From contig NC_135262.1 in assembly GCF_964204865.1 (NCBI RefSeq), forward strand, positions 8,866,001 through 8,930,000: a stretch of DNA of 64,000 nucleotides, written 5' to 3'. Source of the stretch: Styela clava (Eukaryota; Chordata; Ascidiacea; Stolidobranchia; Styelidae). The notes under the pieces are model-generated. The model was not told where the DNA came from, searched no databases, and worked only from the letters and a program-made list of their open reading frames with translations. Shown here piece after piece: positions 17,895-63,690 of the stretch. Numbering within the stretch: the first letter of the stretch is position 1; each line of letters starts with the position of its first letter. The translations under genes and the position numbers were made by a program.

Positions 17895-18565
17895 TATTCT
17901 GTTATTCCTTTTAATGTTTGAAATACTGAAATAAAAAACGTATAATCAGTTACAGGCTCAATATATTTGAAGTATAGATCTACTGGTATCTGTGTACAGG
18001 TGTACGCTCAGACTGTGGTTGATTCAAGTCCGTACTGTGTACCCGTACCGTGACTTTCCTGACTCCTGCAATGCCTGACTGCAGGAAAATCTCATATCAC
18101 AGTATCAGCATATCTGTGTCAGTCTGAACCGGTTAACGTTCCACCGTTTGATAGGATAGTGGATACAATACAGATAAAGATATGAATGTATGTTGTGGTT
18201 AACAGTAAAACCGTACCGTATGTCAGTACAGCAGTATGTAGCAAAATCAATTTAGCCTACAGATTCACCCAAGCCCAAGATATTCTGATATTTATTGCAG
18301 TCACTGAGCAAAGCGAATTATTCGGCTATTCTGACATTAGGCTATTAGAAAAATTATCTTCCTAACTTAGCAAGTGTGCGCTACTCTAGTTTAGAGATGC
18401 TGATTTTGAAAACGTCTCGAAGTAAAAAAATAAATAGAAAAAATCGCCAACCCGGGTAAATTACAGAATTATGAAAACATGCTCCTGCAACAAAACCAGA
18501 AATTCTCGGCAACATTACCTTTCGACCAATAGACTCAAGCACGTGCCGTTCACGAAACCGACGTC
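17895..18565. promoter_or_regulatory. EXOSC10 5' UTR intron and probable shared divergent promoter
   Basis: On the minus strand a donor (AAAG|GTAATG, exon edge 18519) and acceptor (exon edge 17925) frame a probable EXOSC10 5' UTR intron. Just outside the donor lie CCAAT (18525-18529), the E-box CACGTG (18540-18545) and a CRE-like GACGTCA (18560-18566). The last overlaps the ATG of the plus-strand gene at 18566. About 45 bp of motif-dense sequence between two divergent starts suggests a bidirectional promoter. The motifs are seen; the function is inferred. Confidence 0.55.
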
Positions 18566-26900: not shown

Positions 26901-28560
26901 ATTTCTCCAGCGCGTTTGGGAATACTGTAGTAAGCAAGTGATTCAACTCAAAAGAGAATAAACAAATATAGTAGCTCCGTAGTTCTTGTTTAAGTGTCCA
27001 TTTTCGAGAATCCGGTCGTTGCTCTGTTCTATTCCCTTGCAGTATCTTCATTTATTGCGCGTCTAGATGCCGTTGAATTTTCTGTATAATACTTTATTCA
27101 CTATATATAAGTAGTCATAATATTGAATATCGGATAGTAGTAGGCATATGAAGTCCGTGATAATTTGGAAAAAGCATGTTTAATGAAATGTTTCGGCTAC
27201 ACTTTTGGGACAAAGTCATTCAGTGCAAGTGCAACCTGACAATTTCTTCAAATCTAGCATCGGGGTGAACAATACTAGAATCAGCGAATATAAATCTGAA
27301 CAGATGTACGTATAATGACTTATCTTTAGAAAAATAAACACAGGTAGGGCCTATCAGAGGCGCCAATCACTTTAGACTTTGGTGCCCTTTTTATTTAAAA
27401 TAATGAAACTAGCGCTCCATGTCATCTGAATAGGTTTCGGTATTCACTACTAATTAAAAGCTAAGTTATGATTAATTTATTTTTTGGAAATAATTCTCTT
27501 ATCTACAAACATTTATAGAGAGGTGTACGATGGTACTTGAGATTGAGAAAATGAAAAATGTTAACCGAGCGAATATTGAGGCCCGAATCGTCTGACCAAC
27601 TCGAATTACTTTATTAAACACTGAGATACCATTGATAATTATCAGTCGCCCATGAAAATTTCTGTGGTGCCCCTTTCTCGTGGTGCGCTAAGCGTATGCT
27701 TATTTTGGTTAATGGCTATAACAACCCTGGAGAAGAAACGATAAAAGAATTAACCATTCAGAAATGTAATTAGGGGAATAATGTAATTAGATAGGGAACG
27801 TGGAAATACCTGTAGCCAAGGAAGCAGAAGGCTGTAACAAAGCTTACATCGGCTTTAAAAACACCAAAGTAAGGTGGTATTTTAATTTTGAATGGTGAAT
27901 TCGCAGATTGACGGTATTAAAGTACAAAAGGTTATTCCGGTTTAAATGACGTTGAATGTAATAGCATAATGTCTTTCTAGATCACTCCACTTTGCGTTTT
28001 TTTTTTCATTATACGTACAACGTAGTCTGATTGCAATGTAGGCTGCTTTAGCAATGTTGCTCACAACATGGACTGTAAGAAAAGAAAACCAAAAGCAAGT
28101 AAGACAGGTTTCGAATGTACCAGTCGTACAAATAGGACGCACGTGGAAGTCAGTCAGACATCAGTGGATGGCTTGGAACAGTCAAAAAAAGACACTGGAT
28201 TATTCTCGGCATCGGAACTTTTATGACAGCGATTTTCCAGAATAACGTTTTATCATTTATCACATCATTATGTGAACAGGGCTCTTTGCCTGGGTTTAGA
28301 CTAGATGTTATGTCCAGTGAAGACTCGGGAACGGGTCCCCCTGGGTACGCAGCTTTAAAGATACTACAGATTCTGAACGCGCAGTTACACAAAAAGTAGT
28401 CAAGTTGCTTGTAACTCTGGGAGCCTCACGACAAGCGTATATGCAGTGAAGATGCCGACAACTTTTTCTGAACTCATACGAAAATGTCTGCTGATAAGAG
28501 ATAATGGCAGTCGTTGTCAATGTAAGATCTGGACAGAATAGAATATAACTCACTAAATTA
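23932..28560. other. Gene-poor stretch upstream of threonine dehydratase
   Basis: The proximal part should contain the dehydratase promoter and any 5' exon; no TATA or clear element was identified. Beyond that the sequence is AT-rich with scattered short frames (24412-24630, 26202-26384, 26857-27051) that lack start, splice or domain support. Repeat-like GTGCCCCTTTCTCGTGGTGC near 27665 looks like a transposon end. No gene seen. Confidence 0.45.
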
Positions 28561-28562
28561 AT

Positions 28563-28790
28563 CAACGAGATAGCCATCAGAGACCGCCGACTTATCGATC
28601 TAGCGGCGTGTATCCTTTGACTCAAGACCGACACCACGTGTTCCACCACTAAACAATTATCAACTCGTCAATTATACAATATAATTCATCTAAAATCTAT
28701 AGGCTACTGTTCCCAGATATGATGAATGCACATGCAAAATTTGGAACAGATTCAGCCTCGTTTTCGTGAGATATCGCGTGTATCTAACAA
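28563..28790 (+). repeat. tRNA-like SINE, copy 2
   Basis: Same family as 10470-10690: GACTTATCGATCTAGCGG, then AATTATACAATATAATTCAT and GAGATATCGCG in the same order. It lies directly beside the exon array. Confidence 0.5.
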
Positions 28791-28854
28791 ACAGACAAAT
28801 ACCTATCAACATACTTACCGATCAAGATCGATAAGTAACTAGTTACTAGAAAGA

Positions 28855-30330
28855 AGTTGTCCAATACAATTGCATTTTTGTTGATATTGTAATATTCTCC
28901 CTCGCCCTCTTGGTTCGTGAATTGTCCTTCTTCTTAATGAACCCAATCTCTTTTTCTTATCAACGTAAAAGATATTTCCATTCACCAAGTATTTCTCATG
29001 ATATTGCTGGTATCTGTGGGTCACACTCTATTGTCTTTTAATATAACTTCACTTAATCGCTCGAATACCGCGGCAGCGGAGCCTGTAATGTCAACCTTGA
29101 TTCGATCGACTAAACAGATGGGGCGACAACAAAACGAGTGTTAACGATGTGACACTTTTGGTGGCCAATCTGTGCTGTCGAATATATAAGTCGGCGAATC
29201 GCCACTTGTGGGGAGAGAAAACTAGGAAGAGAAGACTGTAACCCAGTATTATACTGTTGTCAATAAATATTTCATAACTTAATGCTGTGGCCCTGTTTTT
29301 CAAGAGCTAAAGAAAGTATAGCGTACTACGACCGTACTAAGACGTTAATAAGAAAGGAACGAAGTATATGAAAATAAAACCACGGTACGGTCCCTGCATT
29401 TGGTGTTTAGTCGATCGAATCAAGTTTGACACTACAGGCTCCGCTGTCGCGGTATTCGTACGATTAGGTGAAGTTACACTGAATGACAATAGAGGGTGGC
29501 TCACAGGTACCAGCAATATATCGTGTACTGAGGACGTAGTCATGTGAGCTAGATGGTACCTAAAATTTGATATATCACCGAACAAATTCAACTAATATGT
29601 AATAGACGAAAACCCTCCACCATTTTGTCCCCATTTATATTGTAGGATTCTCCGTTCTCTTGGTTCGTGAATAGTCCTTCTTCTTGAATCGATTCCAATC
29701 AAAATGCATTTCTCATGATAAATCGTGTACTGAGGGCGTATGCATGTGAATTAGATCATACGTAAAATTCTATGATTCACTACGCAAATTCGAAAAACCT
29801 AATACAAACATATTTTTGTTGATATTGGAGGATTCCCACTGCTCTCTTGCTCCGGAAATGGTTTTTCTTTTAAGGTATCCAATCTCTTCTTTTTCAATGT
29901 AGAATATATTTCCATTCGCGGAATATTTCTCGTGATAAATCGGTAATTACTTACACAAATGTGAGCTAGATTATACGTAAAATTTTATATATCACGAAGC
30001 GAATTCAACTGATAAGTAATCAACGAAAACTGTCTACATTATTAGCTGAATTTATATTGAAGGATTCCCTTCGTCCTATTGGTTCCTGAATAGACATTCT
30101 TCTCATTGTATTGGTTCTATTCTCTTTCTCAACGTAAAATATATTCATTCACTAAGTATTTCTCGTGATATATCGTTTAGTGAGGGTGTAGTCATGTGAG
30201 CTAGATGGGACGTAAAATTCTATAGTTCACTGAGCAAAATGAAATTTCATGAAAACCCTTTATATTTGATGATCTTATTGAATTACCTCATGTCCTCTTG
30301 GTTCGTGAATAGTTTAACTCCTTAATGTTT
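28855..30330 (-). repeat. Tandem array of a decaying exon related to the MGCPC gene
   Basis: At least five minus-strand copies of one exon: about 28865-29004, 29640-29735, 29825-29950, 30055-30185 and 30285-30325. The last three are about 225 bp apart. Copy 1 encodes KYLVNGNIFYVD, then RTIHEPRGRGRILQYQ. It matches exon 4 of the gene at 56712-58037 (KYLVNGNIFYVD, then KTIHEPRGQGRILQYQ). Several units retain the intron end with its CTACGCC(C/T)TCAG acceptor. Copy 2 has an in-frame internal deletion; copy 3 is nearly open; copy 4 is frameshifted by one base; copy 5 is a fragment. None keeps an obvious donor, and no MGCPC-type first exon is visible nearby. Confidence 0.8.
29005..29515. mobile_element. 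511-bp element with ~110-bp terminal inverted repeats
   Basis: Both ends read TGCTGGTA(T/C)CTGTG inward and stay complementary for about 110 bp, including ATACCGCG and GATTCGATCGACTAAACA. ATAT at 29001-29004 and 29516-29519 is a possible target duplication. It splits array unit 1 between the exon and its acceptor flank. The centre has a TATATAAG (near 29189) and AATAAA (near 29266), as in a small LTR or promoter cassette. No coding frame. Superfamily undetermined. Confidence 0.75.
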
Positions 30331-32900
30331 GCAGTACCTTTGGTTCATGTGCACATTTTGTCGCTAATCTTTCTATAATCCAACGCTTGTATTACCTTAC
30401 TGTTATTTTCTGAGATTTTGACAGCTTCACTAATGCAATTAAACTAAAATACTATTATCGATTCAAATGTCTACAAAGTGGCATTGAGATTTCAAGTTCT
30501 GTATCGGTGGGGTGAATTTAAATCGGAAGATGCAATGATTATTAGGGATAAACATAAACATACTCTTTCAGTTAGGCCATAGCATAGTACTAAAGGATTC
30601 TTCTTGGTGTGCAATTATTGACTCGATGACGATGACGTAAACAGACGGAGGCGATCGAGAACAAGAAATGTGCAATCCAAAACAAGTAAGAATTTTTAAG
30701 TGTATTCATATTTACGCTTTAGATTTCAAATATGAGAATTACCATGTTTTTGCCTTCTGTTAGTTTTTATACAACCTCTATATTGCATTCAAGCCTAATA
30801 ATATACAGTAGTTCATATCGTGTTTAGGCAAACTGACTGAATGTAAACAAGCTGTGAATGTTGACATCAGGAACTGCTGGAGTGGAACCGAAACTACAGT
30901 TAACTAAATATTCATTAAATTAGGAATTTCAGTTAGGCCATAACATAGCAATATATTGATATTGAAGAGAGTATTTGTGTGGAGTCCAAGACCCCTGGGA
31001 AGATGTGACTGTGCAAAGATGTTTGTACCATTTCGTAAATAAGGTCTACGCTGGAATTAAACTCAACAAAGATGCAGTTGTGCAAAAATGTTCCATATAG
31101 AGCACAGGTGATATTATTTTCGTAATTTTTTGTTGTCATTTCAACGGTCACTCATTTTGCAGACACGTCGCTTTGTTTCTTTATCCTTATTTTTTCTACT
31201 TCGTTCTTCTCCTAATTTGTTTATTCATTTGTTATGTCCATCCTTTTATATTCTAGCGTTTTCTTGTTTACAACCGTTTTTCTAAGTCTTTCACAGCTAT
31301 GCTAATGCAGTTAGCCTATAGGCGTAGGCCTACATTTGTTGTTTCGTATATGTGTGCACGTGTACGAGTGGAACTGTTGAAGAAAAAGGGGAAAGAAAAG
31401 ATACGAACGAAGTGTTATTGCGAAGGTTAAGGTTGAAGGGATGCGATCAAGGATTAATAAGGTAACTGTTAATATCTAATTTAATCGAACAACCATAAGT
31501 GTCTTCTTATATATCCCTCAAAAGAACTTTCAATTACAATTTATATATAAAAGCTGCATACTGCTGGGCACACGCGTTGAGCAGCGTTGCATTCAAATTT
31601 ACATTTTCAATAAATTCAGATGTATGCGATTTTATACATAAAATAACCCTACGACAATTACCAAATGGTTTAGATTTCTTTGCTTGCTGTTTTCTTACAG
31701 GTGATTCATAATTCCGTTTAGTCGCATTTTTTACTAAAGTAGTTGGAATAAAATTATACCCTCAAATATTGAATCAGATTGGAATCGGATCACAAATTCT
31801 GGAATTGTCTGAATGAAAACGAAAACGGAAGATACAGTTAGATACAGATCGAGGAGGTAAATTTTAATTTATGTAAAATTTTGAGCGGTTTTAAAAAAGC
31901 TCGATCAATTAACTGGGCTCAAGTCACCATTTGACGAAGACCTGAGGTGATTTGAGTCATTCATCTAAATGTAATGGTTGAACTCGTCATTAATTAAACT
32001 AGCAGTAGGCGTTACTCAGTGATTCGACGTACGATTGGTGTGACTGGACTTGGCCATCCACCAAGGGGCCTCGGTGCAGTGTGGTATAGGTCAGGGGTGG
32101 CCAATAAGTCGATCATATGTGATACTTTCACATAAGAGGATTATAGAAAAAAACGACACAGTCCTGCTCCAATACTAGAATTGTGATTTCAAACAATAGC
32201 GTGGTTTTACAAGAATCTAATCGATGAACAACATGGTATTTATATAAGTATAAATAAATACGTTTTTTGAATAATCTGACTGTTTTGCATTTTAGCTGAA
32301 TCTGGTTTCGATCGTATTTACGCAAATTAAGACGGGATGTTTTGAACTAAAAAATGTTGGCGTCTGGATCTGCCGTAGGAAATGCGGTTAGACATTTATT
32401 CAGTTAAGTATAAAATATTAGACTTTGCATTTGGTTATAGTTGTCTCATTCTTTGTAACTTCCGCATTTTGTAAAACCTACACCCTGTAACTTTTTCATC
32501 AACCATTTGAGTTTATTTTTATTGACAACGTAAAAATTACAAAGGGGATGAAAGCGCAAACGTGATATTGAGTTATAGATGGTCGTGCGACGTTTACAGT
32601 TATGTGAGGGAAGATAGGTATTTGTCTTAAAGTTTATGACAGATTTAGGCATTTTACCAATAACGGTTAGGTGTATTAATTCGAAAAGTATTATCTTGTT
32701 GAAGTAATTTCCACAACTACTGCTTGGTTCACACTGCTGTCTAATTTACCGTTGTTCCCGACGAAACGAAACGCTTGTTAAAATGCAGGCATAACAAGAA
32801 TACATAATAATAAAAAGAACGTAAAAATTATGGCGACCAAATCCCGTAGTATGTGAACCAAGATGGGGGCACCGGAACGTAGTACGTGTAGCAGGTTAGG
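30331..32900. other. Gene-poor stretch after the exon array
   Basis: A short duplicated phrase (TTTCAGTTAGGCCATA) occurs near 30568 and 30928. A CRE-like TGACGTAA near 30632 precedes ATG-TGC-AAT-CCA-AAA-CAA|GTAAGA, a possible first exon that could not be extended. A truncated CAGGGGTGGCCAA transposon end is near 32092. No gene seen. Confidence 0.4.
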
Positions 32901-32979
32901 GTTAGGCCGGAAGTTACGGATACTACGGGAGTCACTTGGGGCGCACTTGGGGCGCGGTAGCGTGAGATCGTTTCTGTGT

Positions 32980-33890
32980 AATCGCCCTTCGAAATTTTTA
33001 GCTGATCATTGTGAAAGAAAAAAAGTAATTCTAACTATTTATCTAAATCACAGGCTATAAGGCGAAGAAAGAAGGGAAAGAAAAGCTGTCGTCACAAGAT
33101 ATTGACATGGTTGATGGTCGTGTTACGTAACTGGAAATAAAGGTAATTTGTCTGAAGGTATTACAACATCTGAAGTTTTATCAGTTTTATCACTTGATTA
33201 CAAATCAAAGGTTTAATATTGTTAGGTATTACTTAAATTACAGTCTGGTAGCTAAAGTACTACTTCGATGTATCTATTATACTGCTTCTTGCGTCGTGCT
33301 TCGATTCTAATACGCGGTCCGAAATGCTCGTCCCTAATATTTACTCGTTATATCTCGATTGCCTCAAATAGTTTTCAGATTTCATATAGTAAATAACTAA
33401 CAATTTATAGGTGTATTATTCATGAAGTTCTTTTTCTTTTTACAGGACTGAATGTACAGAGAAGGTAAATCTTCGTGGCACAACTATAACCAAGTAAGTC
33501 CTTATCAACGCAAACAAATCTTGTAGCTTTAAGAGAGATAATTTTTTGCAAAGATCAAATTTTTCTGTCTAACTTGTAATTATCAGCCTCGCGCATTATA
33601 AAAATGTGCTCCGTATTTTATCATTGGACAGGTGAGCAGACCGGACAGACAGACCATATCTAAATTATCTGTACTGTTGAACATTCCAAATTATTAAGGC
33701 GCATGCATAAATGCTGAAGTTTATTGTTTCAAATTTAACTAATTCTCATTAGATACGAAGAAAAATGAAGTATATCTATGAAGAAAATTAAACAAACCGG
33801 CGGGAGAAAAGAAACTGTTTGTCAAAATTTGTAAATCCAAAATACACTGATCTATTTACAGTCGGCTAGAATCATATTCCCATAGTTCAT
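32980..33890 (+). repeat. Inverted duplication, plus-strand arm
   Basis: Aligns through most of its length, with gaps, to the reverse complement of 36040-37250. Shared anchors: GGCGAAGAAAGAAG (33061), TTATACTGCTTCTTG (33278), GTAAGTCCTTAT (33494) and CATTCCAAATTAT (33682). It contains an exon-like block with an acceptor at 33052 and a frame ending GATGGTCGTGTTACGTAA. No full protein can be built. Confidence 0.75.
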
Positions 33891-33933
33891 TATTTTTTTA
33901 GTGATACACTGCGCATTCACATAAAATTCAGGG

Positions 33934-34553
33934 GTCTGTAACCTAACAAATGTGTAATTCACACAATTCCTCGTTTACTGATCCTATAATTTAATTATAA
34001 TTAGTCAAATGGCAACAAAACACAGAAAAGTTGATGCTCAGTGCAGATGGGTTCCAATGGCGCAGAAAATATCCAAATGGAATTATTGGAGATGCAATGC
34101 AATGAGCAAATTTATGCGAGATGTATCACTTCTAGATTTTTATAAAAAACATGTTAAGGAAAATTTTATCCAAATTTGACAAACCATGCAAAAAAATTCA
34201 CATCGATGTTTTGGAAGTATATATATGCTTATTAACATTACAAAGAACAACTAAGATTAGTGATGCCCATTTATAAATTTTTTTCTATCTTGGCTATATT
34301 CAGTAAATTATTAAAAAAAAGTTTACCATTTATTGACGCATGATGCAGCAAAGTGTCTAATTAAATGTCATTTTAAACACTACTATGTTGAGTTCGGGAG
34401 TTGTCGCAGTCTTAATTCAAAATTTAACTTGTGATCTGTGTAAAACAATTATAATTCATCGTCCATTCGTTCTACTTTCTAAAATATGTGCGTCCCGCCA
34501 AGACTTGCAATCACTAATTTTGGCTCGTAAGCGATAAAAGGGTGCCGACCCCT
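33934..34553. mobile_element. Probable hAT-like element between the duplication arms
   Basis: Left end CAGGGGTCTGTAACC and right end (inward) CAGGGGTCGGCACCC are imperfect inverted repeats. No matching 8-bp duplication was found, so the boundaries or unity of the element are uncertain. An 18-base direct repeat (GAGTAATACACTGCGAAT) lies just outside at 34567-34602. Confidence 0.4.
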
Positions 34554-34716
34554 GATAGATCATTTGAGTAATACACTGCGAATTGAGTAATACACTGCGA
34601 ATTGTTGTTTCATATATGATGAAGTCTCTGAAGGCATCCCTTATATGGGCAATGCTTTAATTTTTTAATTATTCACATATCGCATGGAAGCAGTATACAT
34701 GCCGATTGTCTATATC

Positions 34717-35000
34717 AGGGCTGCTCAACTATTTTCATCGAAGGTCCGCATACAAAACTTCAAAATTATTTGGGTCCGGTCTTTCCATTAGTTATATTTC
34801 GGCATCCTTATTCGCATACTTTCTCGAACAATCATGGTGTTATGGTTCTATACATATATATTTAAAACTAGAAAAGTCATTTTATAAATGGGAACTTTAA
34901 AAGTGGGGCTAATGATCCAAACTATTGAATGCGGTCCGAATCAAATACTCGAAAAGATCCGGATGCGGACCGCATGACGAGGAAAAGGCATGGAAGGTGA
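34717..35000. mobile_element. Fragment of an hAT-like element
   Basis: Starts CAGGGCTGCTCAACTATTTT and carries GGTCCGCAT near the left and GCGGTCCG and GCGGACCGCAT near the right, as hAT ends often do. The right terminus is missing or diverged. The 64-codon frame inside is not a gene. Confidence 0.4.
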
Positions 35001-35574
35001 ATTCCACACAGCCCGTTGTAATGTAATGCCTGCAACTAAATACTAATTTCGTTGTATTATTTCTAAAATATAGCCGCCCAAAATGGCACTTTTAAGCTGA
35101 AATTTACGATTGTGTTTCTAAAGTGCTTTTTTTTGTCACTAAAATTAGAAAAATAGGCTGCAGAAATGACACGTGCAGCTCTTAACTTTACCGCATTTAC
35201 CTAATTTCAGACGTACTTTATTTTTTCGGGAATAAATCCAAATTTATGATTCACATAGTGTATTTTAATTGTGTGTACTGTTGTCTTGGTATATCTGATT
35301 TAATGTTAACGAATGTTTTCAAGATAAACTTGAGCTTTGCTGAAACAATAAAATATTTCCGAAATGACATCAAGTTTTATTCCGGGCAGGAGAAGTTTGA
35401 CGGGCATAGACTGAATCTAAGCGGGGGTTACAGGGCAAGGATTATCTATAATTATCTTTGGCCACACTTGATCGGTGGTGATTTTGACGTTATTAAGGGT
35501 AACCCCCTTGGATATTATTCGTTTTTGGCCATTTTTATCGGATAATCGTCACTATACAGCCTTATACTTCCTTT

Positions 35575-35905
35575 AATGACGTCTCCTCCCCATATTTTGT
35601 AATCGATATATTTCAAAAGACTTCGTAGGATTCGAACTTTGGACTTAAATTTTAGCTTTACAACTACACCACGTCAAACACTTTAATTCCAATACTCATC
35701 TATCAAGAGGCGGGGTCACGAAATCTGGGAAATAAGGTTGATTATCCCTTTGGATAGATAAGTAGATAAGTACTAGAGTTGGAACTCAGCATTGTTGTGG
35801 TTTAGTGGTTAGGTTCACATCGAGTTTATCATAAGTCCAAAGTTCGAGCCCGATAAAGTCTTTTAAGAAAATACGAACATTCGATGAGATAATAAGGTGA
35901 CGTAC
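35575..35905. repeat. Pair of tRNA-derived SINEs in inverted orientation
   Basis: Plus-strand head at 35797: A-box TGGTTTAGTGG (35798-35808) and B-box AGTTCGAGCCC (35841-35851). Minus-strand head: A-box region 35661-35672 and B-box AGTTCGAATCC (35628-35638). Both share TAAGTCCAAAGTTCGA and AAGTCTTTT after the B-box, so they are one family. No intact cloverleaf is expected; they are SINEs, not tRNA genes. Confidence 0.65.
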
Positions 35906-36039
35906 GTCATGGAGAATGTAGGAAACTAAATAAATATTCACAATCATCTGATGAAAAATGGCCGAAATCGACAAAAATTCATATTGTAATTTGTATAACC
36001 GTTGGGACTTCTACATCATGTTTAACGATGTGATGTGCA

Positions 36040-37250
36040 GGATCAAAGAATTAACTGGGTGAATGAAAGAATAGTCGATTCAAAAACACTCAGTACAGTT
36101 TGTATTTGCAAATTTTGATATAACAGTTTCACCTGCTTACACGACGGTTCGTTTAATTGTCTTCAAAGATTAATTTCATTTTACTTCGTGGATGTATACC
36201 TGAAATCAATTGAGGATTAGTTAGATTTAATCATTAATATGCACATCATCATATACACGCCTTGATAATTTGGAATGTAAGGTAAAGGTAGATTTGTTTA
36301 TGGTGCACAATAAAGTGGGTCAGGAGCACATTTTTAACGAAAAACGGACAATATACAAGCGAAAATAATTACAAGACAGACACAGGAAAATGACCCGATT
36401 TATATAATTCCAGCGAAAAATTATATTTAGCTACAAGATTTGTATGTTCATAAGGACTTACTTTCGGTTATATTGTTCTGATGAAAATGTGGTCATAGTT
36501 GTGCCGGGGAGAGTTGTCTCCTGTACATTTAGTCGTGTAACAAAACAAATTATAGATGGATAATACTCCTAGAAATTGTTGGTAATTACTATCTAAAATC
36601 CAAAAAATGTCTTGATGAAGTAAATATTGGGGTCGAGCATTTCGAAACTAATATTAGAGTCGAAGCACGACCCAAGAAGCAGTATAATAGATAGAGCGAG
36701 CTCTAACTACAAGTTGCATTTTATGCATAGAGTGTAATATAGGCCACGCTCGTTCAAATTGAAGCGCAAATATCACGATACAACCCACGTACGCAAAAGT
36801 CACTTTAAAAATTTGTTATAATTAACGCGCTCTCATCATACAATAGCATACATTGTGCAATTTAAAAAAATATTTTTTACGTTTAATATACGCCCATGCA
36901 CCCAATAAAATTTTTTTTCATAAAATAGAAAATACGACCAACCTATCAATTTACATCCACCAGTCTTCCCTCGACCACCAGCAGTTACAATATCTTCTAT
37001 CTTCGCAAAGCCCTGTAATTAAATTAAAAATTATAAAACGAGTGCATTAATAATCAAGTTGTGCTAAATCTGATAAACCTTAAAATTTGTAATGTATTTT
37101 GATCATTACCTACCTTTCTATTTACGTCACCCGACCATCAATCTGGTCATTATCATAATTTGCTAAAGTTTTTTTTTCACTTCTTTCTTCGCCTGTGGGC
37201 CTGTAATTTAGAGTAAAAGTTATGACCCATCTCCTTAGCTTATTCAGGGG
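36040..37250 (-). repeat. Inverted duplication, minus-strand arm
   Basis: Counterpart of 32980-33890, with about 200 extra bases around 36720-36940. An exon-like block ends in the same ACGTAA stop context as the other arm but differs in length by 2 bp, giving an earlier stop: a frameshift if it ever coded. Another exon-like piece (36945-37016, acceptor TTAATTACAG, donor G|GTTGGT) reads GFAKIEDIVTAGGRGKTGG on the minus strand. It is not assignable to a gene. Confidence 0.7.
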
Positions 37251-38469
37251 CAGCTAAAAGGGCGATGATACAGAGTTAAAAAATTATAAACAATAACACT
37301 TTGATCCAGACAACTTCAATAAATTTAATGTGGGCACAAAAATCAACACTAATATAAGAATTACAACTGCAACCAAATTTTGAAGCATTGTACAGCTTAT
37401 CATATAGGAAAAAGTTCTGTCAGTGAACTATGGAAAACAACAAATTTTGGGGTAGAATAACGGGCCCGTAAGATCACAAATATTTGAAAATCTACTATTA
37501 GCCTTCCAGCGACGTCTTATTTCTCACAAATTAGTGTCGAACAAGCACGACTCCGTAAAAGCAAAACTGTCGTTTGTTGCGACAGCTGAGGAATAGTAGT
37601 TCGGGGAAGCGCAGCAGCTCACAATACATCAAAAAGCGACAAAATGGCCGAACAAACGTCATCAATTTTGCAATAAATCAGAAACTACGTGCTCGAGATA
37701 AATAAAAAAGTACACATGCAGAGTAAATACGTGTAATATGAAAATATAGGATTACAAAAAATAGAATTATCATTTAACACTCAAAATGATAATCAGAAAT
37801 ATGAATATGACAGAAACAAAGGCGTATCGAGTTAGTCTATGTGTTTCTAAGTTCTACGTATACCTAAATTATTATCAATAAACTTTTAAAATATAGCTGG
37901 AGATTATGGAGTAAACATTAAGCGACAGTATAAATTAATGATCTTGTCGAAACACTGTTGACAACTAATGGTATTCCGACCTTCCTTGCCTGGGAACTTT
38001 GCGTATACCTCAGCGCAGACCAGCGTAGAAACGACCTTACGCTACCACACCCTGAACTGAAATGTGTGTGTGTGATAGGGGTCGTATGGTGCTTACAGCT
38101 CAATCAAAGCTTTTTGCACCAGGTCGTGATAGGCTATTTATTTATCTAGGGGAAATTATATAAAATAATTTCTTTGTTGCTATTAAATGGTCTACCAGTA
38201 GATTCGACAAATTTTAGCACATGAAATAAAATTTTACAATCTGTTAGTAAATATTGAAGCCGAACTGAAATGTGGCACGCGCCAAAATGTTTTTCCAAGG
38301 TCAGAAGAGAAGAAAGAGGCAGGTAATTTAAAGAGAAACAGAGGAAAGAAGTCGGCTATTTTTATAATAAAGAAACGAAGAAACTGGAAACCAATTCCCA
38401 CTCGGATCAGTGACCAATGATTAGGTAGTGAGTGATATTATTGGACTATGGATCGTTTTGGTATTTTTG

Positions 38470-39000
38470 TTGTTGTTCTAATTTTTCTTCGTATCGTTAT
38501 GAAAAAAATCGCCTTTCTTTTTGACTACTGGAGCAATTGCTTTAAAATATTCAGTGGGCAAAGATTGTGTTTTTCACTAAATGGCTATTACTTTTGTTTA
38601 TTCCTAAATTTTATATGAATCTTATGAGATCTTATATTTCACCCGAAATTTGGTCTACATCTACCCTCTGCATGTACGGTTCTGGTGAGTTACCGCACCG
38701 CATATATATGATTTTGTATTTCACTTTGTCCTGGTAATACAGAAGTGACTCAGATCACTTGGTATTTAAATTCTCATTGAAATTGGAAGAATAAATCATC
38801 GATATCACGTGGTATTTCAATTCATGTTAAAACTCAATTATGAAAAACGGATCATTGCCACATGACCTGGAAAAGCCATGACAGTCCCTGAACCCTCACG
38901 GTACCTCAATACAGCTACTGGAAAGTTACCGCATATGATTTTTGGGGAATTGGTCTGCGTGTCCATATATTTAAGCATATGTCTCTTGTACTATATATAT
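38470..39000 (+). repeat. Dispersed repeat family R2, copy 1
   Basis: Shares with 50060-50300 the ordered phrases TTGTTGTTCT/TTTT, AAAAAAATCGC, TTTTGACTACTGGAGCAAT, GGCTATTAC and GTGTCCATATATTTAAGCAT. Probable MITE-type element; termini not resolved. Confidence 0.55.
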
Positions 39001-39807
39001 ATATATATATATGTGCATTTTTTCTATAATATTCTCCATTCAAATCACCTCTCTTGTTCTGTCGCTTTAAAATATTTGTCTGTCACAATATAAATAATAA
39101 AATCAACTTTAACAGTAAATGTATAAAGGTGAATTGGGTAATGAATCGATGGTTCAGCTAAATACGGTCAATGCTGCAATATATTATAATTTTTATCGAT
39201 GTTCAATGGTAGGCACACGCCCAATTATTACAACACAGTGTGCTTCAGCCTACCAATTTCACTTGCGGGAACAGCTTTATTGTATTCCCTTCCAACAACG
39301 TGGCAATCATCGTTGTCTGTCAGTTCCAACTTTGTAATGGCCTCACAAGTTTTATGCTGTAGTCACATCTTGGAACTATAGTTTCCAAAAAAAGCCCATT
39401 TCGATGATGAAATAAAATAAAACAATCTTTAGGATTAGCTCACCCCAACAATGCGAAATTAGCGAAGAGATAATTTTTCTTCGTTAAACCGAATGCTATG
39501 TTTAAAATCACAGTATAGAGACAGCTACATCGATAAATTTAAAAAATATTCGTTAGTTTACTATTTTCGGTGCCAATGGGACACGATATAAAACCTTTCA
39601 GCCTATGAAGTAGCAATAATTTGAGCGAGATGACAGATTGCCACAACCAGCCAGAAATCGCACAAACCATAAATATATGCAGAATAATGATGAGCCTCGA
39701 AGTATTCATTCCGTTACTATTTCTTCGCTACTTGAACGGCGGCACGAAGGAACAGCAATCATCGAAATAACCAACAAAAGTACGAAGCAATTACACAAAT
39801 ACCAGTT

Positions 39808-39813
39808 TTTATT
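39808..39813 (-). terminator. Poly(A) signal AATAAA of the RING gene
   Basis: AATAAA on the minus strand, about 175 bases past the TAA at 39988. It supports ending the gene at that exon rather than splicing on. Confidence 0.5.
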
Positions 39814-39987
39814 TTTAATTTGCCATTCATAATTTTCACAAAAATACACTTCAAGCCATGAGTATGCGATACAACCACGTGATGCTATAATAGTATATAT
39901 ATATATATATTCATTGGGACCAAGAACGCCATTCATATTTCAGCCAATGCTCTTCCTACTTTTGCAAAATCAACATATGCGAACTAC

Positions 39988-42900
39988 TTACTTAAAGTCC
40001 ATCAAACTATTAACAAGTGAAACTGGGAAGCAGTCATCTGCACGGACAACAGTGCGGGGATTGCCGTTTTCCTCTAGCCAGAATGAAAGATAGGAATCGT
40101 CAATATCGTCTATGTCTTCAGTGATGAGGCTGGAGTTTTTCTTTTCCTGAACAAAATATCAGGTTGTGAAAAAGAGATCAAAGCCTATTCATGATCTCAG
40201 AGGCAAAATGTACAAATAAACTACAAAAAGCCATCCGAGATGCTGAACAAGAGAAGTGTTTTATCGGGGGATATTGCGGCTTAAATGGTAAACTAGCGGT
40301 TGGTTTGTGCGAAAAAACTATTTGATCAAAAATGTTCAGAAATGAGATTTACTGGACACGTTTTAGTGATATCAACAAACATTTACCAAAACAGTTTCCG
40401 TATCAAAAATACCATACTACCGAGTGCCAACCAGCCAGTCTCCTAACATCAGCATGTTCAAATATTCCTAAAATGTTGATGAATCGGCAACAGAAATTTA
40501 ATCTATCAACGGACAATGGAAGCGTATTTTGTAACCGTTCATTATAAATTCTTTCTCACCAGCTCAACACCAGCAAACATGCGAGGTTGAGTAAGATGTT
40601 TTAGTTGACAACTCTCAAGAAGCTTCACAACTCCAGGGAATTTTTTTCCACGACGATTGAAGACGTACACCTTGAGTGAAATGTCACATATTATTAAAAT
40701 TATACCTTTCAACTAAATGCTTTAGTCTAAAAATAGTGCTGTTTACAACCCAAAAGATTGTTTCAACTGAAACCCACTAAAGCTCTGATATGGGCATCTG
40801 ATACGGCCCGTTGGGTAATTCAATCTGGCCCGCCCGATGCTGCGACAACCAAACTAACAACAAAGTTTGGTTTTAGCTAAAATACCTCCGGAATTTGTTG
40901 AAAGTGCAATTAAATTTAGTTTCGTCACAAGGCATTGTTTTCCACTTTTGCTTTTGTAACACTGTAAATATCGTAAACGTACATGGCTCGCCAGTTTAGA
41001 TAGGCAAAATTTTTGGCCATCGATTCAAAAACCTTGCCCACCCTGCTAGCTGCTACAGCTCCTTTTATTTATTGAACTAGGTTCGTGCCTAAGTCTTGAA
41101 TATACGTGTAATATGTGAAAAGCTTTTACAAACTGTAGAAGTTTTTGATGCGCGGAGATAATTCACCAAGATTTTCCTTTAACATTGAATTTGATTAATG
41201 TAGGCCTACAGTTGTCCCCATCGCGCTTGTAATATTCTCTTCGGCACCAAGTAAATTATATTCACAGGAAACGAACCATTATAACCATTACCTCCACTCC
41301 TACTTTAATTTCGCCATACATCTTAATAGTCGGTGTAGGTGGGACATCTTTGTCATCTGACGACTCGTAGGAATCACTATAAGAATCATCAGAATCATAA
41401 CTTGAACAACTTCCATCTTCACTCTCTTCGTCGGAAGACTGAAGAAAATTGAGATTGTTCGATTGAAATGTAAAATGGGGAAGACTATGTTACACTTACG
41501 TAAAATATACAAACCGATGAACAGCTTTCTCAACTATTGCTATATTATAGGACAATCGTATTTATAACCCTGTAATAAATTGCCTTCTCCGTCCAACCTA
41601 GCAAATAAGGTTTTCAATTTGATTTGTTTGGTTCGCTCTAACACTTTGTACAAGTTTCGGTATTCAATGACCCCAAACGGAGTATTTATCGAAATTTTAT
41701 AGCACCCTGAATTCGTCAAAACTAAATTAAGCCAAACATCTCACACTGTAATCAGAGGAATCGGATGAATCCTCTTCGTCGCTGCTAGATGTGTCGCTGC
41801 TAGATGTTTGCTGTTTTTCTTCTGCGGTTTTCTTTTCTTGTCTCATTACATTCGCATTTTTATCTTGTCGTTTTGCAGAAGCTGCTGTCTTTTTGCCTTT
41901 CTCAGCATTTGAACTGGCTGCCTTCTTCGGTTCCGCATTGCATTTTGAGCTCATCATTTCAGCAACTTTTTTCGCAATTTCCTTACTAGATGTCGGGGCT
42001 GCTTCAAATAAAATCACAGTTGGAATGGTATACCACAGCGAATGCGACTATTTATCGTTTGAGAATGTTTTTTCTGGTACGAAAAGCATGTTCTATACGG
42101 CCCAGTCATATACCACGCATTTGGTTGGTTAGGTAATTAGATTTACATATAGAATGATATTTTGTTAGAAGATGGTTGTACACGTTTTGAAGTCCGCCTT
42201 TTAAATACGCGGAAACATTACTTACTCCCGGACCGAGACACAATAAGCAACATAATTCAGTGTTGTTTTTGTTTCTGTCGTGTACAGCACTCAATAAACA
42301 GGCCTACATGGAAAAAAATTAGGTTACTGCTACAAATGTCTACAATGTCGTTTTATTAAAATCAGCCGAAATCTCAAGCAAAAGTTTTGTATATACGAAC
42401 TATTTGTATCCCATACAAAACTTGCAACAGTAAGAAGCTATCATAATCTTACCTGTTTTAGGCTTGGCTTTTAGTGTCGTTTTAGTGGCAGGTTTCACGA
42501 GACCTTTTTTTGAAGTCGTTACTTTGTCAGATTTCACTTCTTTTTCTCGGTGCTTTAGCATTGCTAATAATCCTTTGATGGCGTAATTTTCCGGCAGTCC
42601 TTCGACTCCTTGTTGCGGTAGTACAGTGAGCTTGCGACAAACCGCACATTTCACTTTATTGGTCTTCTTACTTCTAGTTCGAAGCCATCCTAAAATGGAG
42701 TTGACTTTTATTGTAATGATGGGCAAAAATGTCTGTTCTTACGTATTCATGGCTGCTTATACAGAGATTTATGATCGACGCCGTGGGTCACGACGGCGGC
42801 AATAGGTTTATTCTCAGCATGGACATATTGAGTGAAAATAATAAACTATAAAATACCTGGACGACCATTGAGTACGAAACGCTCCATATTTCAATGATAA

Positions 42901-43281
42901 TTATCCAACTCTCAATTTATAAGCAATCAAATTTAAAGCTTCTCGATTCCTTCAAAAAATTCACTCAAAATGCAGTTATCCACAGAATTGGGATTTCTTA
43001 TTTTCTCATTTTAAGAGATTTTATAATAAAAGACAAGAAATCACAATTGAAAATATCATTCACAGAAATTATTCTTGCTTATTTATGGCGTGTTACAAGT
43101 GGTCCCGGGCTTAAAACGGTGTACATCAGTTTTATCACATACCTTTCAAGCACTTTACGCAGTAAGAATGTTGACATGACAGCACTTTTGGTTTTACATA
43201 CGCTGAATGGCAGATTGGACACTGTAACAGGCTTTCTGAGATTTCGGCTGATAAACTGCTTTCTGAAACTGCCGTAGCCAT
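39988..43281 (-). CDS. RING-finger protein with Ser/Asp-rich linker and CAP-Gly-like C-terminus
   Basis: Probable E3 ubiquitin ligase of 349 residues. Exons in reading order: 43143-43281 (ATG 43281), 42453-42689, 41745-42001, 41292-41438, 40560-40670 and 39988-40146 (TAA), all in phase. C3HC4 RING: C21, C24 (CPIC), C36, H38, C41, C44 (CQHSYCVKC), C61, C64 (CAVC). It is followed by LTVLPQQGVEGLPENY, as in TRIM-type RINGs. No B-box follows. Instead there is a Lys-rich stretch (about 70-188), then a Ser/Asp/Glu-rich run (190-243). The last 100 residues (KVGVEVYVFNRRGKKFPGVV, then FAGVELE) look like a CAP-Gly or other SH3-like barrel but lack the GKNDG motif. A GTAAGT overlaps the stop (TTT AAG TAA GTAG); an AATAAA downstream favours termination there. 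RING is certain, the C-terminal fold is inferred. Confidence 0.82.
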
Positions 43282-46213
43282 ATTAACATAAAAGTATCAA
43301 AATAACATAACGTAAATAACCTAAATCTAACAGAAGAAACAGAACGATACCGCCAAACGAACGAAAACTAGATGTGGTGCGCCGCTCGAGAATCGACCAA
43401 AACAACCATACAGAAACAACTCTAAACAAGCGTGGTGTAGTAATTATTAATCTTAAATTGATTTGCATTCAATCCTTCATCATTGTCCGTGTACAGTCGC
43501 TGTACTGTACAAACTGTAAAATTCAAAAAAGCCAGTAATTTTTTTTTGTTGGTTGATAATATGGAGGAGACGTATCATTTAATTCCCTGAAACAATCATG
43601 TTACGCTACTACAATTGAGCGGGATTACAAATATAATTTTTATAATAAAAATTGATGCCTAATGGGGAGCCATTCTCCATACCCAGCTGCTGTGTAATTT
43701 GGTTCTCAAAAACTGCAACACAGGGTCTCCAACAGGTTGATGAAAATTGGTCAATTTTGAAAAATGGCCCCCTTTTTTCAGAATGGGCATCCTTCGCTTA
43801 CAAATAAACCTTTGTAGTAAGGAAGGTTGAACAAAATAGGGATAGTAAAGAATTTAATTACCACTGCCAAATTATATTTAGAGTTTAAATAAAAAATAAT
43901 ACGCAAATGATCATACATATATATATATGGCTATTATCATATTTCGAGTTTAACCAAAAACGAATTTTTAAACTTTCGTGGTCGAAATTTGGTTATGTTG
44001 GAGGCGAAATCTAAAGTTAAATTTGAAAGTTAGATTCGGAGTTAAAATTTCCGTCATCAACATGGGGGAGTCAGTTTTCTAATTGATTGAAGTCAGAAGT
44101 CGGAGTTGTTTGGAACTTTAATTCGACTCTACATTACTGTTATACCTTTTCGCTTTAACAATGCCAAGTGCAAGATGATGCGATGCAATTTTATTTCAAC
44201 GATTTTTGGTCTGGCCTGCCTCATTTATCCAAAATAACAGAGAATGCAGTGTGTGTGTTTCAAGCACGTATGGTCGAAAAAGTAGTAAGTTTGGAAATGC
44301 AATCAAAAAATAAAAAAAACTATTCAAAAGAAAACTATACTGTCGACAAGTTTCCCTATAGATAGTAGTTCTCACTTATTATATATTTCCTAGATTTTAC
44401 AAGACTTTATTGTTAGATTCACTCCCAGTCAAATTTTTCATTAGTATTTACTATAATTTCTTCAAAAGACGACTCGTGTCTTCGGTGGACATGTCAGCAA
44501 AAATAAACCTCTGCTCTGGGCATAGTTGCATTGAGTCGATTGTTGATGACATGATGTGGGTATTTAGGTCGTCGGTGAACTATATTTCCGCGTATTCTCC
44601 CTATGGCAAAAGCATTTATGTGCAAGGGGACGTCGATGAAGAGTTTTTTCTCGTCCGGAACCGTGCGTAAAGCGTAAAAAACTCGTCAAATTTGGATCGG
44701 GGAATGATGATCATTTGAGATTGCACCCGACTAAATGAACACCCGACTAAATGATAAGGCTCCGAGGACCGAGAAAAATTAGCACACGTCATAGACCGAA
44801 TTGTTCTACTACTGAAATTATGATAAAGCAATTAATTCTGTTTCTTCTGCACCTATTTCTCAACGTGCAACAACCCAAGCGCAACAGCATTTTGCAGTGT
44901 ATTAATTATTGTATTTGTATTACAAGCAAAGCATTACATCGCACTATTTACATTGCTCATTAGTGGCGTTTAAAGTTATATCCACTAAACTAAATGAATG
45001 TACAATGACTGTCAATTAACCTATGAATGACTGTTGCTAAGCTCTCGAAACTCCGAAAAGACTGTTTGAAAGTATCGATGAAACAAATTTTCAACAAATA
45101 ATAAGTAATTCTGAGTAATTCAATAGACTTGCTGTACACTAACAACACAAATATATTTCTGTAACATTTCGTCTGACCAAGGTCAAACTTCCTCAGACAT
45201 ACATATTTCAAATTAGCAAGACTATTGAATTACTCAGGATAGTTATCTTTACTCTTGCTACAGCATCCTTGCATTATATGCAGACGGATCCACCGACACA
45301 AAAGGATAGAAGACAAACGAAAAAGTAGTTGGTCTTGTAGAAACCCAATCAATAATAAGTGATATCGAAAATAATAGAATATTCCAATACAATGCAAAAA
45401 AGTAATTCTCGATACTATCGAATTGTTGACGTTAATATCAATCAGAATTTTTTGTTTGCAAAATTGACATTTTGAGAAACTGACGTCTGGCAGGTGGACC
45501 GACAAAGTTCTTCATATAGTAAAACTGTTTTCTTTACTTTTCTGACTATGATTAATGTTCAAGTCTACACTATATGAAATACACATTGCTTTCTTTGGGT
45601 AAATTATTGGATTTTGTCATGACTGAGACAAGCGTTTATTGAGCTGAAAGCAACCGCGCCTACAATTCACAAATCAATATTAATATCACAAATTATACGA
45701 TGAGCGAATATGCACTTTGATTATAAAAACGAAGAAAATATATATACACCAACGATGAATCAATCTGAAAGAAAAAAGGGTATAATTTAAAACAAAAACT
45801 ATTTAAACGCAAAACCTTGGTATTTTGACATCAGGCAGTAGTTTGCGATCATGTATCTAACCGAGCTGATTGGTATTGTTGACGAATGAAGATTAGATGC
45901 CAAAGATAAACCAAACAAGATTTGTGGGAAAAGTTTTCCCTTTTTCGGAAAATCTGATTATAAAATACGTATTATAATGTCGGGAAAAAATGGAAAATTT
46001 TATTGGGTGCTAATTCGGTATGTGATCTCCGTGGTTGTCTGATTTCGGTGATTTTAGTTACGAACTGAATTTTATGCGAATGTCCTTCTGAGACTAAGTT
46101 AAAATGAGATTGATATCACGTTAATCATTAATGAGATTTTGGCTTAGGGTAATGCTAATTAAAAATATATTATGAAAAATGGAAATATATTCACCGAACA
46201 AAGCCGCCCCTCT
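43282..46213. other. Intergenic between RING gene and metallothionein
   Basis: Upstream flank of the RING gene, then AT-rich sequence. A frame at 44410-44670 (ISAYSPYGKSIYVQGDVDEE) and one at 44168-44365 are open but have no splice or family support; the first has repeat character. A CCCGACTAAATGA phrase is duplicated near 44727 and 44743. No gene seen. Confidence 0.45.
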
Positions 46214-56711: not shown

Positions 56712-58037
56712 ATGGGTTGCCCTTGTTCTAAGTTTTCATCAGAGGATGAAGATGGCGAAGAAGTTATTGAGGTAAGTAAATTAGTTGAGGATGATGTGAC
56801 GGAATTGAATGTTTTGGCAGATGAAGGAATTCGTGATCACGTCATGGTCATTGATATGGAGATGGTGAAAGAAATGATTGAGCAGGTGATTGAGGATGCA
56901 AGGAAGGTGTTAAAGACAGAGGCAGACCAAATGAGAGATAGATTAGAAGACAAAGACAGCAGCGCGGAAATGGACACAAAAGAAAAGCTGGAAATACATC
57001 GTAGAGGTATATACTAAATAATCGCCTTTAGTTAAATTTAGAGATGTGAGACGGGCCAAGAAACAAAACTTTCTTGAGAATACTTGAATACAATATTATG
57101 TGATTTCATGTATTTTGGGTTATCTTATTATCATTTTACTTTCTCTAGAATGAAATATCTAACAAATTTAGCCAAATATAACATGTTTCCATATTATTTT
57201 AGTGCAATCTACTATGTGTTCTGACGAAGAAGACGCAAAGAAGATTGGGATCAGTTGGTCAGACGCGATTCGCCAACAGGTATTTTTTCTAGATTTATCA
57301 TTTCAAACCTATTTACTTACATAAAAAATATTTACTTGAATATAAAAATATTTTTTCAGTCGTGGAAGATCAACGGAGGACGTTTGTTTTCAGAAACATC
57401 TGTTTTTGATTCAGAAGATTCGTCGTGGACATTGGAAATTAAAGAAAAGGTGTGATTATCCAATGAAAAGGGTTATTTTCATAAAATTGTGCTTAATTAA
57501 ATATAAGCCTGATTGTTAAATTTGTTTTAAATTGTCTTGACAGCAGTCGCCTTTGATATAAAACTGAAGTCAATCTGACGTCATCTTCAGAACTCAATCA
57601 CAAAATGCATTGGAACTATTATTTGAGTTGAAATTAATGTTGTAATATTTTTATTCAAAACTGTTTTTATTTTCTATATGTTCCTGATGAAGCTCGCATG
57701 TCTACGCCTTCAGGATACAATATGTCATCGAAAATATTTGGTGAATGGAAATATTTTTTACGTTGACATGGAAAAGAGATTGGATTCATTAAGAAGAAAG
57801 ACCATACACGAGCCAAGAGGACAAGGGAGAATCCTACAATATCAACGAAGGTACAAATACAATGAACTTTCATGAATTTTTCCTTTGCAGTTGGTTAAGT
57901 GAATCGCAGCATTTTGCGTATTCATTTCGCTATCTCATTGTACTATTTGAATTCAATTAAAAATTTATTTTAGCTTATGTTATTACATTTTCAGATCTTA
58001 CATCGACGAGGACTTGAGCAACGAAGACTATTTTTAG
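56712..58037 (+). CDS. Unrecognised acylation-type protein (MGCPC...), 213 residues
   Basis: Five exons in phase: 56712-57006, 57203-57279, 57360-57449, 57714-57850 and 57995-58037 (TAG). The start MGCPCSKFSS has Gly2 for N-myristoylation and Cys3/Cys5 for palmitoylation, so it is probably a peripheral membrane protein. Residues 10-95 are acidic and helical (MEMVKEMIEQVIEDARKVL), a likely coiled coil. Then come ISWSDAIRQQ, a Ser/Glu segment, the basic exon-4 block (KYLVNGNIFYVD, then TIHEPRGQGRILQYQ) and an acidic tail ending EDLSNEDYF. No enzyme motif is visible. Exon 4 could start at 57693 instead of 57714; the array copies at 28.8-30.3 kb share the CAG acceptor used here. A degraded copy lies 3.9 kb downstream. 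I do not recognise the family. Confidence 0.72.
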
Positions 58038-60580: not shown

Positions 60581-61676
60581 ATGGGTTGTCCATGTTTAAA
60601 GTGATTGCGAGAAAATGAAGATGATGTCGAGTACAGGAAAATGTGATACTGATGAGATGGTCAATGTGAAGAGAGAGATATTAGAAGACAAAGACAACAG
60701 CACGGAAAGGGACATAAAAGAAATGTCAAAAATGCACGGCAGAGGTATATACATAATGTATATTAATTGATTTTAGAGAATTTTCATCTGGGTAAGAAAT
60801 AAAGCTTTATCCAGAATATACGTGATTTTTCCATTTTAAATAATATATTTCCATTTTACTTTTTTACACTTATTGAATTTACGCAAACATAATATATGTG
60901 TTTTAATATTATTTTAGTGCAATCTACTGCGTGTTATGACGAACGTGACGCAAAGATTATCGGGATCAGTTAATTAATCAGATGCGATTCGCCAACATGT
61001 ATTTTTTCCAGATTTAATATTTTCAACCTACCTTCTTGTATACAAAAAGTATTACTGAAATCTAAAATAATTTTTCACCATCGCAGAAAATCAACGGAGG
61101 ACGTTTAGTTTCCGAAACATCTGTTTTTGACTTGAAAGTTAAAGAAAAGGTGCGATTATCACTTAAAAAGAAATTCTTCCAAAAGATCGTAGTAAATTAA
61201 TATATGCTTTGTTGAAAACTTTTGCTTTGAATTGTCTTGTCAGCAGTCGCCTTTGATATAAAACTGAAGTCAATCTGACGTCATCTTTACTACTCATCCA
61301 TTCAAAATGCATTCAAACTGGTATTTGAGCTGAATTTGAGTAGGTAATTTTTTAATTCAAAGCTATTTTTATTTTTTTATTTTTTTCGATGAAGATCGAA
61401 ATTACCTTTTACGTTAACAAGGAAAAAAGATTGGATTCATTGAGAAGAAGGACTATTCACGAGCCAAGAAGACGACGGAAAATATCAACGAAGGTACAAA
61501 TATAAAGAATTTTCATGAACTTCATCTTTGCAGTTGGTTTGATAAATTACATCATTTTGCGTATTTTTCACTTTTTCATTCGACTGTAATTTTGGAATTC
61601 AATAAATTTATATTAGCCCATGTTTTTTTTTATTTTTAGATCTTACATCAATGAGGACTTGAGCAACGAAGATTAA
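60581..61676 (+). pseudogene. Pseudogene copy of the MGCPC gene
   Basis: All five exons and their introns are recognisable in order, so it is a segmental duplicate, not a retrocopy. Exon 1 starts ATGGGTTGTCCATGT but stops at codon 8 (TGA 60602) and has lost most of the acidic region. Exon 2 has in-frame TAA (ISSTOP where the parent has ISWSD), and its CAG|GT donor has become CATGT. Exon 3 lacks about 24 bases. Exon 4 has lost its 5' part and donor-side bases. Exon 5 keeps SYINEDLSNED and stop. Multiple breaks rule out the parental product; an unrelated short product is not excluded. Confidence 0.85.
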
Positions 61677-62886: not shown

Positions 62887-63690
62887 CTAAATTTTTATTC
62901 TTATTTTCATTTCTGTGAATTTAAGTGAATAATAATGGCCTTTCCAAGCACTCCATTCCACACCATCAGCGTAAGAATCATGATTTCCTCCTACGAAGTA
63001 ATGGCCGTTAAGGTTGGAAGAATGGCACGCACTGTACCACCAGGCTCCTTTATACAACACTGCACAATTGCCAACGTGGTCATCGTAATCTCTATCTTTC
63101 GTAGTGAAATTGGATCCATTGTGTCGACAAAATGAATCACCAGCATTCCCCGAGTATCCACTTACGTAGAGAGTATAATATGATGCCGCATTTGCTACTC
63201 GAAAGTTCCTGGATGTGGAAAATATTCAATTTACCCGGGAATCTATCGCCACATCCATGTGAAAGCTAGTATAAACGTTGGTAGACTTTCTATTGTATCG
63301 AAAACCTCACTTATAAACAAACTGCTTTTGAACTAGTTAAAAATTAATTATTGGACAAATAACTTATCTATTTGGGTAGACAAACCCAAATAGTTTTAAA
63401 AAACGTTCAAAATGTTCTTTCACCCATATCTTTTGATGTATATATTTAATTTTTAAAAATCTATCAATTATTCCAATTACTGTCTGTTTGTAAAGTGCTG
63501 TTTAAGTATATAAGTGTAAAATGTTTAATAGGCATGATTAAGTAGAAATACGTATTAGTTAACGCAATTTTAATCGATAAATTCATAACTCACGAATATC
63601 TTGCGTAGCGTTTATTTCCTTCCCAATCCTCCATGTCAATCAATAGTTCGTAGCTGTTGGAAGAAGTTAATTGATGCAAAGTTTCAAGAC
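62887..63690 (-). CDS. Fibrinogen-related lectin B, 3' two exons (partial)
   Basis: Paralogue of lectin A running off the window end. Exons 63594-63690 and 62887-63208 (TAG) have the same lengths (97 and 322) and phases as A. It keeps WEGNKRYARYS, CAVLYKGAWWYSACHSSNLN and the C-terminal YYSLKFTEMKIRIK. The Ca site reads DRDYDDH instead of DRDNDNS, and WWYRSC is WWYSAC, so calcium or ligand binding may differ. Its intron (385 bp) equals A's once A's LINE and one TSD copy are removed. Upstream exons (signal peptide and N-half of the domain) should lie beyond 64000. Confidence 0.92.

Follow-up and report, generated by a model that had tools for sequence, protein, structure and literature searches.

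A decayed tandem array of one MGCPC exon in Styela clava, probably the relic of a paralogous gene copy

The array of exon-4 copies described here is most probably the dead remnant of a paralogous copy of the MGCPC gene, i.e. a decayed 3′ fragment in which exon 4 was duplicated in tandem and which would have no present function. The window is the whole stretch of DNA that was analysed (C17:8866001-8930000; 64,000 nucleotides); coordinates given without a prefix refer to it. The genome searched comprises 376.6 Mb in 379 contigs. The units of the array keep intron sequence on both sides of the exon, no unit that is readable at the donor carries a GT, repeated elements are inserted in the array and downstream of it, and the unit is found in few places of the genome, one of them a second decayed array on another chromosome (C18).

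The MGCPC family and the layout of the array

Gene G1 (MGCPC...; 56712..58037, plus strand) includes five exons (56712-57006, 57203-57279, 57360-57449, 57714-57850 and 57995-58037) separated by GT-AG introns. Its exon 4, 137 nt long, starts in phase 0 and ends in phase 2. The encoded protein (213 aa) has MGCPCS as its N-terminus, which agrees with MGxxxS, the pattern of N-myristoylation; acylation of the protein is putative. It matches no Pfam family above the cut-off (best E 0.069). On C17, the family forms a tandem cluster: G1, a decayed copy G2 (60581..61675, plus strand; MGCPCLK followed by a stop, exon 4 shortened) and further whole or partial copies, some of them broken in several cases, near 69, 73, 85, 90, 94 and 102 kb (window-based numbering). 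Decayed or partial copies are also found on C14. The exon-4 donor is GT in 7/8 gene copies, the exception (C14b) being AT. The aligned exon-4 acceptor of the C17 genes is AG in G1 and G5 and AA in G3, G6 and G7; some of the C17 copies therefore do not look functional. An isolated fragment of exon 1 of the family, with its 5′ flank, lies at C17:8453460-8454235 (minus strand).

Five exon-4 units of about 230 bp, all on the minus strand, were found within 30370-28808, in agreement with the first-pass annotation, which had counted at least five tandem copies. A unit consists of the end of intron 3, the 137-nt exon 4 and the start of intron 4. The MGCPC gene used as a blastn query gives five minus-strand pieces (28994-28877, with 87% identity, 29700-29624, 29928-29815, 30202-30051 and 30327-30234; E 1.5e-36 to 1.6e-4). 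With a unit profile, five units (E 6e-52 to 6e-20) are detected, together with a detached intron piece; this profile was built from the genes and from the array units themselves and is therefore not an independent test of the array. Exon 4 of G1, at 57.7 kb, had been regarded as the only match of the array in the window; blastn adds the decayed G2 (60.6-61.7 kb).

From the 5′ end of the array, the units are U5 (30239..30370; the most decayed, profile E 5.9e-20), U4 (30008..30242), U3 (29793..30007), U2 (29598..29789) and U1 (28808..29004), U2, U3 and U4 being delimited by both blastn and the profile. The detached intron piece (29516..29590, minus strand; profile E 2.1e-11; repeat family D1) belongs to U1, from whose exon it is separated by an inserted element. 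Spacings in the 3′ direction are 219, 232, 187 and 750 bp; the last one results from this 515-bp element and is reduced to 233 bp when the element and its TA are subtracted. The junction between intron 4 of one unit and intron 3 of the next is identical in all units that retain it, on C17 and on C18 (alignment, read by eye). U1 is the best preserved unit: its exon shows an open frame of 42 codons and an identity of 84-89% to five C17 gene copies (86-89% to four of them over 118 nt).

Local direct-repeat clusters number three in 114 kb of C17, and of these the array alone comprises more than a single pair; they are commoner in the other stretches examined (four in 20 kb of C18, nine in 30 kb of C13 and one in 20 kb of C14). 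None of the seven rows given by Tandem Repeats Finder falls at the array, as expected for copies this diverged, and Rfam gives nothing in the window at gathering score. The assembly yielded no COX1 match, and a pattern for the spliced leader of Ciona had 0 hits.

The window also contains, at 15513-17945 (minus strand), an uninterrupted frame of 810 aa that matches EXOSC10/Rrp6 and includes three Pfam domains, apparently an intronless gene in an animal genome. Two similar copies of fibrinogen C-terminal exons lie at 50378-50716 (minus strand; Pfam E 1.4e-34) and 62887-63225 (minus strand; by eye).

Decay, inserted elements and a probable exon-5 start

The donor can be read in seven units of the two arrays (units X1 to X4 being those of C18; U5 and X4 are unreadable at this place) and is GT in none of them: AT in U1, U3, X2 and X3, AC in U2, CT in U4 and GC in X1, whose alignment is the least certain. 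An A is thus found at +1 in 5/7 units, AT being common to four. This suggests that the donor died before the expansion or early in it; G-to-A changes are frequent enough to recur independently. At the aligned acceptor, AG is found in U2 and X2 only, with AA in U3 and AC in U4; the gene copies G3, G6 and G7 likewise lack AG at the exact aligned place. The acceptor side of U1 was cut away by the 515-bp element. Stops in the reference frame were found in U4 (one), U5 (two), X1 (two), X2 (one), X3 (one) and X4 (one). No stop interrupts U1, U2 or U3, but a large deletion is found in U2 and small deletions are found in U3. The earlier statements that donors seem lost and that most units are decayed are therefore borne out. 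The statement that the units carry the acceptor stands for the retained end of intron 3 and for the AG of U2, and falls for U1, U3 and U4.

The element that splits U1 (29003..29517) has terminal inverted repeats of about 115 bp (88% identity; inverted-repeat detection), is bordered by TA on both sides according to the junctions read, and is MITE-like. Its family has at least 84 matches in the genome (best 40 of 62 candidates scored). A second insertion, a high-copy dispersed repeat (28564..28839; 2519 candidates genome-wide, 40 of which were scored), separates U1 from exon 5, at the place expected for intron 4, and fills most of the gap between U1 and 28531-28510.

At 28510..28531, on the same strand as the array and about 345 bp downstream of the U1 exon, a stretch is found that is probably the start of exon 5 preceded by its CAG acceptor: 19/22 nucleotides (CAG and the first 19 nt of the exon) are identical to the gene. 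Gene copies aside, this 22-mer, which was selected after the match had been noticed, reaches more than 16 matches nowhere else in the window on either strand, and none of 8.0 million Markov positions reaches 17. Local alignment scores at the site are 32 when 30 nt of intron are added to exon 5 and 29 for exon 5 alone, each reached by 0/1000 null sequences. Other results speak against the site: the score of exon 5 of copy G7 is reached by 16/1000, a 37-mer has 21 matches there, which is the chance level, a whole-gene profile does not report it at E up to 10, and exon 5 with its flank ranks just 17th of 198 in a tile test.

A search for exons 1, 2 and 3 upstream of the C17 array (30341-39500) did not find them: 19, 44 and 91 of 100 null scores, respectively, are as high. 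Of six pieces tried in the nearer stretch 30341-32500, the best one, 21 nt of exon 1, has a score that is reached by 3/200 nulls. The search upstream of the C18 array did not reveal exons 1 to 3 either, and exon 5 was not found at that array (149/400 nulls as high).

Pairwise comparisons of U1 with five gene copies give dN of 0.06-0.10 and dS of 0.45-0.87. The selective constraint on U1 that these values suggested was dropped after the 17 differences between U1 and the gene consensus had been polarised by the other units: four non-synonymous and three synonymous changes fall on the U1 branch, three non-synonymous and five synonymous ones on the gene branch, and two synonymous ones are unplaced. 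The U1 branch thus has no clear constraint. It is short, and U1 is open over its 42 codons, unlike the other units; gene conversion or a later death of this unit could possibly explain the short branch.

Related arrays in the genome

The 811-bp DNA of the array has at least 11 matches in the 376.6 Mb (8/8 candidates scored) and its 40-aa peptide at least 14; each of them lies at a gene copy (C17 and C14) or at one of the two arrays (C17 and C18). The count of exon copies throughout the genome, which had been proposed as a check against a high-copy repeat, thus finds the unit at these places only. The many copies of a dispersed or satellite repeat were not found. It is therefore least probable of all the readings considered here, and largely refuted, that such a repeat captured exon 4 or that the gene captured its exon 4 from a repeat, even if head-to-tail units with a single junction and a second array on another chromosome would fit either event.

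The second array (C18:5657287-5658360) includes, according to the unit profile, four decayed exon-4 units, X1 to X4, with spacings of 204, 416 and 191. The spacing of 416 becomes 238 after subtraction of a different inverted-repeat element of 170 bp (ends CAGGGGTC...GACCCCTG), which is flanked by a target duplication of 8 bp containing two mismatched positions (by eye). Next to this array, C18:5658487-5661689 is collinear over 4.7 kb with the block 39527..44227 of the window. The flank 39500-41200 used as a query gives at least 41 matches (best 40 of 3338 candidates). These are the query itself, the C18 stretch and short hits of a dispersed repeat at about 40801-41048; among these best 40, a long match is found in the C17 and C18 places only.

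The stretch 40801-41048 itself belongs to a high-copy dispersed repeat (the 3338 candidates, of which 40 were scored, refer to the whole query). The block common to C17 and C18 also includes a putative TRIM-like gene with a RING-like pattern of cysteines (43135-43248 and 42400-42738, both minus strand; by eye). The C18 copy of this stretch carries a stop, and Pfam gives nothing for 42400-42738.

Since the array and its neighbouring stretch are common to C17 and C18, the two loci would derive either one from the other or both from a shared source. A tree of 17 exon-4 sequences, in which strong support is found on just 2/14 inner branches, pairs U5 with X4 (96/91) and U4 with X2 (82/68), and places U1 beside the gene copies (87/90). 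The unit junction, the paired units and the collinear flank, all common to the two arrays, suggest that an array of several units would predate the C17/C18 duplication.

Another array of the family, decayed and made of exon 3 only, is found at C13:21925001-21955000. Blastn gives eight distinct places there, one of which has an E of just 0.009; this count omits one 20-nt match to intron sequence. Four of the eight occur three times through a 4.95-kb tandem with 99.8-99.9% identity, which is either recent or an assembly artefact. The exon-3 peptide has 17 genomic matches, which are confined to C17, C14 and C13, and stops were found in 3/5 distinct C13 units scored by this peptide search. Exon 4 was not found at the C13 array (no tblastn match at E up to 1; best unit-profile E 4.8). 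The exon-4 arrays and this exon-3 array taken together indicate that single-exon amplification probably occurred at least twice in the family. That exons of the family were repeatedly amplified by a route copying an exon with its intron flanks and acting on short exons, e.g. through small circular DNA amplified and re-inserted, is conceivable and rather unlikely.

Origin of the array and its meaning

Duplicated (non-processed) pseudogene fragments are a class of sequences that keep introns and accumulate disabling changes. The array resembles them in its intron sequence, its decay, its mobile-element insertions and its nature of an ectopic partial copy, and differs from them in that one exon was tandemly amplified and that a partner array lies on another chromosome. 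The flanks of introns 3 and 4 that align with the gene indicate that it is not a processed copy, and the disabling changes include stops, deletions, lost donors and the insertion of an element; U1 is open and its donor is dead. The first-pass annotation had left the choice between the relic of a paralogue with an expanded exon and a repeat unit that captured an exon. The retained intron flanks, the probable exon 5 downstream on the same strand and the C18 array support the relic as the better option. The G2 match, the 515-bp element, the downstream high-copy repeat and the probable exon-5 start were absent from that annotation.

The following order of events is proposed. A 3′ gene fragment (end of intron 3, exon 4, intron 4 and start of exon 5) would have lain in inverted orientation, 27 kb away from the gene cluster of today. 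Exon 4 with its surroundings, about 230 bp in all, would then have been duplicated in tandem to at least four or five copies, probably via unequal exchange or slippage, and the C17 and C18 loci may derive one from the other or share a source. To a later stage would belong the decay of the units, the splitting of U1 on C17 by a mobile element and of the C18 array by a different one, and the insertion of the high-copy repeat into the old intron 4. Against a relic of this kind stand the exons 1 to 3 that were not found upstream, the lack of an exon 5 at the C18 array, and U1, which is open with a short branch.

Tandem exon duplication is well known, and Dscam1 and Mhc are named for mutually exclusive exon clusters in PMC9013439. 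As in such clusters, the array has head-to-tail copies of an exon with intron flanks and a length that is not a multiple of three; unlike them, it has dead donors in 7/7 readable units, mostly broken frames and no complete gene around it. A literature search at the level of titles and openings of abstracts, together with parts of PMC9013439 and PMC5740500, found no such locus; nothing wider is claimed.

The array could be the ruin of a mutually exclusive alternative-exon cluster that once worked in a paralogous gene, which is considered distinctly unlikely. Adjacent similar exons of similar length are present (five units with a period of about 230 bp), as the earlier remark on an arrangement that produces alternative exons had recognized. 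Two copies of the 137-nt exon (phase 0 to 2) in one message would shift the frame, so that the copies would be usable one at a time only; U2 and X2 have AG at the aligned acceptor, and exon 5 probably lies downstream. A working acceptor and donor on each exon is what the array lacks: the donors were probably dead before the expansion or early in it, judging from the AT shared by 4/7 units and the A at +1 in 5/7, and the upstream exons of the gene were not found. The alternative-exon reading is no more than a resemblance.

It is still more improbable that U1 is in use, e.g. as the terminal exon of a read-through transcript or as a source of antisense RNA against the gene cluster. Such a use would agree with its 42 open codons and its identity to the five C17 gene copies, with the orientation of the array, which is antisense to the cluster, and with the end of the element, which supplies an in-frame CAG right before the exon (by eye). 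The dead donor and the U1 branch without clear constraint argue against it, as does its exact identity to the five gene copies tested, which extends over 17 nt at most and is short for small-RNA targeting.

The relic of a paralogous gene copy thus remains the preferred reading. Tandem exon duplication is the usual origin of alternative exons, and the array would be a failed case of it, with a partner on another chromosome. It illustrates a non-functional outcome of this process and calls for caution before exon arrays are named alternative exons from sequence alone. The most interesting part is the repetition of single-exon arrays in one family, which offers a small test case for exon amplification.
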